DNA of 64,000 bases from Acidimicrobiales bacterium (lineage in GTDB: Bacteria; Actinomycetota; Acidimicrobiia; Acidimicrobiales; MedAcidi-G1), in NCBI GenBank assembly GCA_022452145.1, contig JAKURY010000004.1:1-64000 (forward strand), written 5' to 3'. The stretch's first letter is position 1. Every line of letters starts with the position of its first letter. This document shows positions 22,307 through 25,792 of the stretch, one piece after another. The translations under genes were made by a program, and so were the position numbers. The notes below the pieces were generated by a model. It was given only the letters and a program-made list of their open reading frames with translations. It was not told the DNA's origin and did not search any database.

Positions 22307-23530
22307 TCAGCCGGCGGTTGCCACCGCCCCCCGGTCGATCAGGGCCCCCACCTCGGCCGACGTCAGGCCCAGGTCGACGGTCAGGATCTCCTCGGTGTGC
22401 TGACCCAGCAGCGGCGCAACGTCGGCGCCACGATCGCCGGCGCGTGACACGCCGAACGCCAGCGGCGAGCCGGGCACCAGGTGCATGCCCACACCGGGCT
22501 GATCCAGCTCGGCGAACAGGGGATTCGCCGTTGAACACCGGGGATCCTCGGCCACCAGCTCGGTGACCGTCCGGTACGGACCCCAGCAGACGCCGTGCTC
22601 GTCCATCCCGTCTGCCACCTCGGCAAGGGTGCGCTGAGCGAACCAGGGCTCGAACAGGTCGCAGAGCCGACCGGAGGCACCGTACCTGGAGCCCTCGTCG
22701 GCGAAGTCCACGCCCAGCTCGTCGGCCAGGGCGGCGACCTCGCCTGCCGTTCCGGTGACCGCCAGCAGGCCCCGCCACTGCTTCGGGGTTATGGCCACGA
22801 CCATCACCCTCCGGGCGTCGGACGTGGTGAAGTCCCGCCCGAAGGCGCCGTAGATGGCGTTGCCGATCCGACCACGGGACTCGCCGTTGACCTGGGCCTC
22901 TGCCAGGTTCCCCAACGATCCCACGGTTGCCAACGCCACATCGGACAGGGCGATGGTGACCTGCTGGCCCTCGCCGGTCCGGTAGCGGTGCCGGTCGGCG
23001 GCGACCAGGCCGAGGGCCGCCATCTGGCCGCAGACCAGGTCCCAGGCCGGGACGACGTTGTTGACCGGGCGCGGATCGTCGGGGTGTCCGGTCATGGCCG
23101 GATAGCCCACGGCGCAGTTGATCGTGTAGTCCAGCGCGCTGGCCCCGTCGTGCGAGCCGGTGATGACGAGCATCACCAGATCTTGGCGGCGCGCCTGCAG
23201 CTCGTCGTAGGACATCCAGCCCACCGGCGGGAAGTTGGTGAGGAAGTTTCCTGCCCGGGCTATGAGCTCGGCCAGCAGCTCGGTGACCTCTGGATCCCGC
23301 AGGTCGACGGCCAGGGAGCGCTTGCCCCGGTTCAGGCCGTTCCAGTAGAGGCTGACCCCGTCATAGGTCAGCGGCCAGCGGCGGTGGTCGAGGCCACCTC
23401 CCACCTGGTCAAACCGGATCACGTCGGCACCCAGTTGGGCCAGCGTCATCCCACCGGACGGAGCGGCAACGAACGCCGTGCCCTCGACGACCGACAGTCC
23501 CTCCAGTGGGCGGATCACAGCCCTCTCCAC
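22307..23530 (-). CDS. CaiB-family CoA transferase, mesaconyl-CoA C1-C4 CoA transferase (Mct)-like
   Basis: 407 residues. Family III transferase with the catalytic Asp in ALSDVALA. Several segments match the 2-methylfumaryl-CoA isomerase (Mct) of the 3-hydroxypropionate bicycle as I remember it: VVEGTAFVAAPSGGMTLAQLG, FDQVGGGLDHRRWP, GPYRTVTELVAEDPRCST by region, and VPGSPLAFG. Mct moves CoA within mesaconyl-CoA from C1 to C4. Many heterotrophs carry relatives, so carbon fixation is not implied; itaconate, mesaconate or glutamate-type C5 acid metabolism is an alternative. GTG 23530 is the first start; GTG four codons later is possible. Confidence 0.7.
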   Translation of the reverse strand: MERAVIRPLEGLSVVEGTAFVAAPSGGMTLAQLGADVIRFDQVGGGLDHRRWPLTYDGVSLYWNGLNRGKRSLAVDLRDPEVTELLAELIARAGNFLTNFPPVGWMSYDELQARRQDLVMLVITGSHDGASALDYTINCAVGYPAMTGHPDDPRPVNNVVPAWDLVCGQMAALGLVAADRHRYRTGEGQQVTIALSDVALATVGSLGNLAEAQVNGESRGRIGNAIYGAFGRDFTTSDARRVMVVAITPKQWRGLLAVTGTAGEVAALADELGVDFADEGSRYGASGRLCDLFEPWFAQRTLAEVADGMDEHGVCWGPYRTVTELVAEDPRCSTANPLFAELDQPGVGMHLVPGSPLAFGVSRAGDRGADVAPLLGQHTEEILTVDLGLTSAEVGALIDRGAVATAG

Positions 23531-23674: not shown

Positions 23675-24127
23675 TCAGGAGAGCGCCCGGATGTCGTCCA
23701 GTACGGCCGTGGCGTGCTCGGCGAGGTCCTGGCCGGCCAGGTCGTAGGTCCGGACGATGCCGCCCTCGGGGTCGATCAGGTAGCTGATGCGGCGGGGGTA
23801 GCCCTTGTCGGGCTGGTCGGCCAGGTAGGCCGTGCCCATCACCTTGTCGACATCGGCCAGCAGGCGGTACGGAAAGCCCTCCTCGTCGACGAACTTCTTC
23901 TGTGCCTCCACGGAGTCGAAGCTGGCGCCGACGACCACCGCTCCGGCTGCCTCATAGTCCGGGGTTCGATCACGGAACCCCCTGCCCTGGATCGTTCAAC
24001 CGGGGGTGGATGCCATCGGATACCACCACAACGCCACCCAGTGGCCACGCAGGCTCTCCAGGGTGACTACCTGGCCGTCCTGGTCGGGCACCGAGAAGTC
24101 CGGAGCCTCAGTTCCCACTTCCAGCAT
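23675..24127 (-). CDS. Selenocysteine-containing peroxiredoxin (Bcp/PrxQ type), TGA recoded at codon 44
   Basis: 151 codons with one in-frame TGA (23998-23996). Both sides read as one thiol peroxidase: APDFSVPDQDGQVVTLESL, then WWYPMASTPG-U-TIQGRGFRDR, where U replaces the peroxidatic cysteine of the P-x3-T-x2-C motif, then VVGASFDSVEAQKKFVDEEG by region and RRISYLIDPEG with the conserved Arg. Length is normal for Bcp proteins. A hairpin 14 bases after the TGA fits a bacterial SECIS. The residue 5 places later, where PrxQ has its resolving Cys, is Arg (a one-selenocysteine type). ATG 24127 has TTGGAGAG upstream. Role: peroxide reduction. Alternative: a nonsense mutation, made unlikely by the exact position and intact frame. 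Confidence 0.8.
23961..23981 (-). promoter_or_regulatory. SECIS-like hairpin inside the peroxiredoxin gene
   Basis: Minus strand: GGGGTTC (23981-23975), loop CGTGATC, GAACCCC (23967-23961), a perfect 7-bp stem. The loop begins 21 bases after the TGA and has G in its second position, both within what is described for bacterial SelB-binding elements. Confidence 0.65.
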
Positions 24128-24319
24128 CGCGTCTCTCCAATATCTGGCCATCTCGTGGTGGCTGCCCAACGTAGGTGCCTGAATACATCTACCTGAACAT
24201 TGCGTACCTCGCCGAACCTAGTACCGGGCTCCGGCCGACGACGGACCAGACGGGCGGCGGGCCCAGGGCCGACACCGGGCAGACCGGACGGCCGGCCCAC
24301 AGGTCGACACCGGGCCGGG

Positions 24320-25792
24320 TCAGGCCATCCAGGAGATCGCCTGCACCTCGCTGTAGGCCTCGAGGCCGGCGATGCCGCGGTCGCGGCCGATCCCTGACTC
24401 CTTGAACCCTCCGAACGGCGCGTTCGGATGGGGCACGATGCTGTTCAACGCCACGTTGCCGGATTCCAGGCGCCGGGCGATGCGGTAGGCCCGGGCCATG
24501 TCTCCCGCGTACACATAGCTGTAGAGCCCGTACGCCGAGTCGTTGGCGATGGCCACGGCCTCGTCGTCGCCGTCGTGGGCCAGCACCACCACCACCGGCC
24601 CGAAGGCCTCCTCCCGCACGGCGTGCATGTCCGCCGTGCAGTCGGCCAGCAGGGTCGGAGCCACGAAGTAGCCGGGCAGGTCCGGACGCTCGCCTCCGCA
24701 CACCAGCGTGGCGCCATCAGCCACCCCGCCGCGGATGAATTCCTCCACGCTGTCCCTCTGGCGTTCCGAGACCAGCGGACCGACGAGGGTGTCGCGCAGG
24801 GTGGCATCCCCCACCTTCAGCATCCCGGCCACCGACTCCAGCGTGGACACCAGCTGGTCGTAGAGGCTGGTGTGGCAGATCACCCGGGTGGGTGCCGTGC
24901 AGATCTGTCCACTGTGGAAGCCCCACACGCTGGCTATCGCCCCGACGGCGGCATTCACGTCCGCGTCCTCGGTCATGACCAGCGCACCCTTGCCGCCCAG
25001 CTCCATCAGCACCCGGGTCATCGATGCGGCACCGTCGGCCATGATCCGCTTTCCGACGGCCGACGACCCGGTGAAGCTGACCATGTTCACGTCCGGTGAC
25101 GCCACGAGGGCGGCCGAGGCCTCCACGTCGGAGGTCGTCAGGATGTTCACCACGCCGGGCGGGAAGCCGGCCTCCTCCACCGCTTCGCCGAGTCGCAGCA
25201 CGCCCAGCGGGTCCTGCGGAGCCGGCTTGATGATGCAGGTGTTGCCCATCGCCAGGGCCGGAGCCAGCTTGCCGGCCACGTTCACGAGCGGGAAGTTGTA
25301 GGAGGTGATGCAGGCAACCACCCCGGCCGGCTGCCTGTGGGAGACCGCGCCTATCAGGCCGGCAGGGCCCAGGGCCGAAGCAGCCTGGGTGACGGGAAGC
25401 TCGGCCCGGTCGAGGTCGCGGGGAACGGCGTACTGGGCGTAGCGGTCAGCGAGGGTCGGCCCGACCTGCATCGTCTCGGCCACGTTGATGGTGGCACCCG
25501 TCTCGGCCTGGACGAGTGTCGACCATGTGGGTGCCCGCTCACGGAGCACGTCTCCCAGGCGGCCCAGCAGCGCGCCACGCTCGACCGGTGGGGTGTCGCG
25601 CCAGCCCGGAAGGGCCGCCTTCGCTGCGGCGATGGCAGCTTCGGCGTCGGCGACCGAGCCGTCGGGTGCGTGTCCCACCACGGCCGTGGTGTTGGGATCC
25701 ACGATCTCGTAGGTGCCCGACGCGGACGTCCATTCACCTCCGATGAGGAGCTTCCACTCCTCCTGCGGATCGATGGCGGTGGTCTCGCCCAT
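24320..25792 (-). CDS. NAD(P)-dependent aldehyde dehydrogenase
   Basis: 490 residues, standard ALDH length. Catalytic Cys in SGQICTAPTR, general-base Glu in MELGGKGALVM, cofactor motif FTGSSAVGKRI and the C-terminal PFGGFKESGIGRDRG. It oxidises an aldehyde to the acid; the closest group by feel is the betaine/vanillin/aromatic aldehyde type, but the substrate is not readable. The peroxiredoxin gene follows on the same strand after 192 bases, which contain their own AT-rich promoter-like stretch, so the two need not be one transcript. Confidence 0.87.
   Translation of the reverse strand: MGETTAIDPQEEWKLLIGGEWTSASGTYEIVDPNTTAVVGHAPDGSVADAEAAIAAAKAALPGWRDTPPVERGALLGRLGDVLRERAPTWSTLVQAETGATINVAETMQVGPTLADRYAQYAVPRDLDRAELPVTQAASALGPAGLIGAVSHRQPAGVVACITSYNFPLVNVAGKLAPALAMGNTCIIKPAPQDPLGVLRLGEAVEEAGFPPGVVNILTTSDVEASAALVASPDVNMVSFTGSSAVGKRIMADGAASMTRVLMELGGKGALVMTEDADVNAAVGAIASVWGFHSGQICTAPTRVICHTSLYDQLVSTLESVAGMLKVGDATLRDTLVGPLVSERQRDSVEEFIRGGVADGATLVCGGERPDLPGYFVAPTLLADCTADMHAVREEAFGPVVVVLAHDGDDEAVAIANDSAYGLYSYVYAGDMARAYRIARRLESGNVALNSIVPHPNAPFGGFKESGIGRDRGIAGLEAYSEVQAISWMA

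Follow-up and report, generated by a model that had tools for sequence, protein, structure and literature searches.

Peroxiredoxins with selenocysteine (Sec) in a TxxU active site are an established group. The Sargasso Sea set contains 43 such sequences, filed under COG1225 (PMC1088965), and the GOS set contains 253 (PMC2398784). A count of 91 proteins in 78 organisms has been given (PMC5029168), and the group is tabulated in a 2026 review (PMC13188914). The word Actinobacteria is absent from PMC1088965 and PMC2398784. Symbiobacterium, then placed under Actinobacteria, is listed with a Sec-peroxiredoxin (PMC1794560), so that in its older sense the phylum already had a listed case. SelA and SelB co-occur in most sponge symbiont bins, which belong to various phyla (PMC5649159). 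Within one open-access collection, searches for selenoproteins or selenocysteine in Acidimicrobi- taxa or Actinomycetota found no paper on the gene.

The window (the whole stretch of DNA analysed, 64,000 nt from an Acidimicrobiales bacterium) contains a gene with the known TxxU features, including PF00578, the PxxxTxxU motif, UGA at the peroxidatic position and a downstream hairpin of the bacterial SECIS (bSECIS) type. In contrast to the metagenomic TxxU sets, the gene is here tied to the genomes of one order, together with the Sec machinery, the neighbouring genes and Cys forms. Judged from sequence comparison, it appears to be a lineage-anchored addition to the established TxxU Sec-peroxiredoxins, forming a Cys-poor branch in one group of uncultured actinobacteria.

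Other peroxiredoxin types are less close. Bcp/PrxQ proteins (PRK09437; 5iox, 3gkn) are the best solved relatives and have the STPGC/U-T context in common with the window protein, but their peroxidatic residue is Cys where the window protein has Sec. The best NCBIfam score, 89.1 bits, is to the Bcp-type thiol peroxidase NF006960 and lies below its cut-off of 140. The earlier note on this DNA had pointed to PrxU, which we take to contain Sec, as the precedent. As a family this does not hold, and membership was rejected, because the protein scores 47.2 bits against NF040737, the cut-off being 270; the PrxU model has 233 positions and the window protein 150 amino acids, and what they have in common is the peroxiredoxin superfamily. 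AhpE (Rv2238c) likewise has one catalytic residue, but it is Cys, and the protein is more distant (1xxu, E 3.1e-11). One-Cys AhpE is recycled via mycothiol and mycoredoxin 1 (PMC4360819).

The gene very probably encodes a functional one-Sec peroxiredoxin, with SelB-dependent Sec at residue 44 and reduction by an external thiol. Decoding of the UGA as Sec, as the earlier note had proposed, is strongly supported by the machinery, the UGA of relatives, the covariation of the hairpin and the constraint on codons, and the comparative case for Sec is unusually complete.

The gene and its catalytic site

Table 1. Positions of the gene, its signals and its neighbours in the window (the product names of the two neighbours are those which we presume).
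Feature	Position	Strand	Basis or remark
Predicted Sec-containing peroxiredoxin gene (PF00578, PrxQ/Bcp-like, 150 aa)	23675..24127	-	TGA translated as U; Pfam; Bcp structures; dN/dS
In-frame UGA, codon 44, peroxidatic position of PxxxTxxU	23996..23998	-	Sequence; alignment with catalytic Cys; homologues
Putative bSECIS hairpin, 7-bp stem, loop CGUGAUC	23961..23981	-	Folding, compensatory changes, loop Arg codon, CGUGA conservation
Ribosome-binding site GGAG, 7 nt 5' of ATG	24135..24138	-	Sequence
Start codon ATG	24127-24125	-	Sequence
Terminal stop, also TGA	23675..23677	-	Sequence
Upstream neighbour, aldehyde dehydrogenase-like	24320..25792	-	Conserved neighbour; functional link not claimed
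Downstream neighbour, CaiB/BaiF CoA-transferase-like	22307..23530	-	Conserved neighbour

Two pieces of a Bcp/PrxQ-type protein in the same frame, split only by a TGA at the catalytic Cys and preceded by a normal start and ribosome site, had been described earlier, and each of these points was borne out. There is one frame of 150 codons with this TGA as its sole internal stop, the ATG is preceded by GGAG (Table 1), and alignment with Cys-containing Bcp proteins, which had been suggested as a check, places the TGA where solved Bcp/PrxQ proteins have the Cys of TPGCT (best 5iox, E 9.5e-21). The read-through product matches Pfam AhpC-TSA (PF00578) over residues 4-125 (E 8.7e-32; 110.1 bits, cut-off 26), and its motif around the UGA is YPMASTPGU. 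PF00578 has five matches in the window's genome, and this protein alone has TxxC/U, the others having UxxC or CxxC. Each of the two neighbours lies beside the gene in 17 of the 23 loci tested; one of the aldehyde dehydrogenase-like cases is a 30-aa contig end only, and in L030 there is only a distant 55-aa piece of the CaiB/BaiF-like gene.

The resolving Cys places of Bcp/PrxQ are presumably +5 or helix alpha3. The window protein has R49 at the +5 position and V80 where Bcp structures carry Cys in NFCAKQGF, and it has no Cys anywhere, so the two-Cys type of Bcp/PrxQ was rejected for it. The claim that the resolving Cys is replaced by Arg, which makes an external thiol necessary, is confirmed by R49 and extended by the complete lack of Cys, since a Cys-free protein needs an external reductant. 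Apart from Sec, Cys is also missing from the products of 46 of the 62 Sec genes read, and a Cys at +5 occurs in one (L066).

In the proposed cycle, SelB bound to the hairpin past the UGA would deliver the Sec-tRNA (UCA), and the ribosome would insert Sec44, insertion itself being a presumed step. The selenolate, activated by Pro37, Thr41 and Arg113, would attack the peroxide to give a selenenic acid, which would then be reduced by a thiol from outside the protein. The three residues are conserved in the alignment; their activating roles are assumed by us from peroxiredoxin chemistry.

Mycothiol with a mycoredoxin-like protein is, by analogy with AhpE, the most likely reductant, with about an even chance of being the right one, and thioredoxin comes next as a possible but less probable candidate. 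The window's genome encodes an MshC-like protein of 452 bits, which is below the cut-off of 485 and also scores 352 bits to CysS (cut-off 340). Its gene is one of two adjacent CysS-like genes (L117 and L118, G000:C32:9915-12385), one matching better as MshC and the other as CysS. This pair suggests mycothiol synthesis in the lineage, and mycothiol is likely to be present there, judging from gene content.

A less probable alternative is that the Sec-peroxiredoxin is recycled not through mycothiol/mycoredoxin but through thioredoxin or the genome's own UxxC selenoprotein. The nearest NCBIfam models are named thioredoxin-dependent, and a second PF00578 protein, with UxxC, is indeed encoded in the genome; yet a Cys-free protein offers thioredoxin no internal disulfide or selenylsulfide as a target, and the lipoprotein-like N-terminus of the UxxC protein would probably place it outside the cytoplasm. 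Mycothiol with a mycoredoxin-like protein is preferred here to both.

Sec machinery and the hairpin

The genome of the window (46 contigs, 2.1 Mb, 95.07% complete) has all four components, selA, selB, selD and tRNA-Sec, for which a search had been advised in the earlier note. SelB (265.7 bits, above the curated cut-off) is encoded on contig C9, where SelA (389 bits) adjoins it, and the same contig carries a tRNA-Sec with anticodon TCA (67.5 bits). SelD (365.2 bits) has its own in-frame UGA within GAGUGCK (L040:1402-2433, minus strand, G000:C17), a site which in other SelD proteins we take to be Cys or Sec.

The stem of the hairpin pairs 23981-23975 with 23967-23961 (7 bp, no mismatches) and encloses the loop at 23974-23968, which has G as second base. 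The spacer from the UGA to the stem is 14 nt, and the loop starts 21 nt from the UGA. A perfect 7-bp hairpin 14 nt past the TGA with a 7-base loop had been reported, and it is exactly as described. According to the 2026 review, bSECIS elements have a loop of 3-9 nt, an upper stem of 4-16 bp, G in loop position 1 or 2, the loop 16-37 nt from the UGA and a minimum free energy of at most -7.5 kcal/mol (PMC13188914). The window hairpin (L041) lies within these limits, with a 7-nt loop, 7 bp, G second, 21 nt and -10.5 kcal/mol.

Folding of the single sequence was rejected as proof of a SECIS element, as the 46-nt stretch, in G+C-rich sequence, gains no stability over shuffled versions (z 0.13), of which 106 in 200 fold equally well. 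The hairpin alone is thus no evidence, and the comparison of relatives carries the weight. A loose bSECIS test was too permissive to stand as evidence by itself, being passed by all 62 UGA sites but also by 3670 of 5427 control positions in the same genes. A stem score of at least 17 is reached by 55 of the 62 UGA sites versus 455 of the 5427 control positions. Eight of the 49 distinct Sec sequences fall short of the -7.5 kcal/mol limit with their 21-nt hairpin (six at -5.5, L065 at -7.1 and L066 at -5.3 kcal/mol). L066 pairs in register at four of seven positions only, and the stems of L032 and L101 use another register.

Changes on both sides of the stem exceed the shuffled expectation. Among 29 distinct sequences there are 10 cells with double-side changes versus a shuffled mean of 3.1, and a second, more varied set of 31 gives 15 versus 3.8; in neither set did any of 500 shuffles reach the observed value, though kinship among sequences may beat all shuffles even without structure, as the tool itself warns. 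The set of 31 consists of hand-picked Sec sequences without near-copies, L032 and L101, while L032 is within the set of 29. Pairing in the set of 31 is 95.9% in register and falls to at most 64% when the partners are slid by 1-3 columns. Two other covariation measures, double-change pairs and further pair types, were unexceptional in both sets. In L032, L124, L128 and others from the same part of the tree the stem is replaced (GGGCCUG...CAGGCCC type) around an unchanged CGUGA, a loop sequence found in 61 of the 62 Sec genes.

Constraint on codons points in the same direction. All 51 distinct Sec genes have CGT as the Arg codon of the loop, whereas CGT makes up 35 of 301 other Arg codons of those genes; the 301 exclude the residue directly past the Asp of the loop, which itself is CGA in 45 of 51. 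The share of synonymous pairs with the same codon is 0.96 at u+7, 1.00 at u+8 and 0.95 at u+11, against a background mean of 0.48 (sd 0.14, 67 other codons); u+27, which is outside the hairpin, is also high, at 89%.

A further reading is that the UGA is decoded as some other amino acid, by near-cognate suppression or general reassignment, to give a protein without selenium. The frame, open on both sides of the UGA, would fit this as well, but the reading is very improbable: UGA is not generally sense, since an unrelated family has 33 matches in the same genome and all 33 are free of internal stops; a tRNA-Sec whose anticodon is UCA is present, as is a hairpin that covaries; and the site is the catalytic one, at which members of the clade have replaced Sec by Cys in two cases and by Ser in one. 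The 33 matches belong to the DAO family (FAD oxidoreductases), which for a genome of 2.1 Mb looks like many amine/sarcosine-type dehydrogenases.

On the reading of UGA as Sec, the window's genome has at least three predicted selenoproteins, the peroxiredoxin among them. Two hairpins are predicted past the UGA of selD, one of them with loop GUC 33 nt downstream. The second redox candidate (L080:356-919, minus strand, G000:C44) is a ResA/TlpA-like, lipoprotein-type protein of 188 aa that has UxxC in the form SYUPVC; a hairpin whose loop is AGUUG is predicted 25 nt past its UGA. If the GUC hairpin is taken for selD, the loops of the three genes share G followed by U at the start (CGU, GUC, AGU). 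A SECIS covariance model of 29 sequences was discarded as a genome-wide selenoprotein finder, its only clear match being the peroxiredoxin gene (E 4.1e-17; next 0.79), so that the hairpins of selD and L080 are missed by it.

Sec, Cys and Ser forms in the order

A scan of contigs found 23 loci encoding relatives, 18 with UGA and five with Cys forms; the records of the UGA-carrying ones are labelled Acidimicrobiales, Acidimicrobiia, Acidimicrobiaceae, Microthrix and, in one case, Actinomyces. In a sample of 41 genomes (the window's own and 40 relatives), the UGA form is present in all 25 genomes of the family. Homologues (E<=1e-30) occur in 45 of 248 genomes of the order, 41 of which have exactly one TGA inside the match, and all 62 Sec sequences that were read have the UGA at the identical codon. 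Relatives, which were to be inspected for the same UGA, thus have this single codon and no scattered stops.

A SelA match is present in 38 of the 41 UGA genomes, that of G192 being two pieces below the cut-off. It is missing in G259 (96% complete), G216 (90%) and G086 (78%), all of which have tRNA-Sec. Of the 41, 37 have SelB (E<=1e-60), and the four without it all have tRNA-Sec (ARAGORN check). Among the remaining 207 genomes 110 have SelB, and the difference (Fisher p 2.7e-6) is only a guide since genomes are not independent. SelA was found in one (G043) of 15 homologue-free genomes tested, which were picked from those lacking SelB and not at random. SelA and SelB were both looked for in nine family genomes, and each of the nine has the pair; a costly selenocysteine apparatus is kept by a family of actinobacteria with small genomes.

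In the 31 relatives that were read as far as the next stop, the frame continues past the UGA to its full length of 149-158 codons. In comparisons with ten relatives dN/dS is 0.20-0.50 past the UGA versus 0.05-0.21 before it, and it is higher on the 3' side in all ten pairs. Values below 1 past the UGA, together with the codon constraint, indicate selection of the downstream part as protein and of the hairpin region also as RNA. Stop counts in the 52-sequence coding set were not used against a pseudogene because 31 of the 52 had been extended as far as the first other stop. That the TGA is a true stop, left by a nonsense mutation in a dead gene, has practically no probability left, for although the gene is split by it and the listing of open reading frames of at least 60 aa shows this frame by its downstream 87-aa piece alone, the single TGA recurs across the order, the frame beyond it stays full length, dN/dS there is below 1 and the Sec machinery is complete.

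Replacement of Sec was met in a few homologues. L097 (G148) and L121 (G161), both within the Sec clade, have TGC at the site. The genome of L097 retains SelA, tRNA-Sec and a SelB match slightly below the cut-off; no fold is formed by the 21 nt that correspond to the hairpin, and 46 nt allow a weaker hairpin (-6.4 kcal/mol) nearer to the codon. The genome of L121 is without a SelA match and without SelB (E<=1e-60), and its best match to the tRNA-Sec model is a tRNA-Ser. L120 (G094) is a Ser form in which the motif is lost; SelA and SelB are present, and the best match to the tRNA-Sec model is a tRNA-Gly. L122 (G118), also a Cys form, falls outside the Sec clade. Natural Cys versions from which the hairpin has gone from its place offer a test of the benefit of Sec in a peroxidase without resolving Cys.

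In a tree of 70 proteins, which has a midpoint root only and several long branches, the 62 Sec sequences, two Cys forms and the Ser form are on one side of a branch with support 98/98, the placement of the Ser form being weak (91/50). Nesting of L097 and L121 inside the Sec clade argues that Sec is probably ancestral there and has been lost on three occasions, with Cys as the replacement in two and Ser in one. A wider proposal, which is tentative, is that of a Cys-poor one-Sec PrxQ-like clade recycled by mycothiol/mycoredoxin in a GPx-like cycle and serving as the main AhpC/TSA-type peroxidase of the actinobacterial family, with a single gain of Sec at the base of the clade followed by three or more losses (two to Cys, one to Ser).

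L066 (G028) is a Sec form keeping Cys at +5 (UTIQGC), with a weaker hairpin, and may reflect an older two-residue state. Two redoxin-like proteins of the family, L135 (G020:C25) with WUPPC and L136 (G006:C52) with WUGC, each have an in-frame UGA and a predicted hairpin, and are possibly further selenoproteins.
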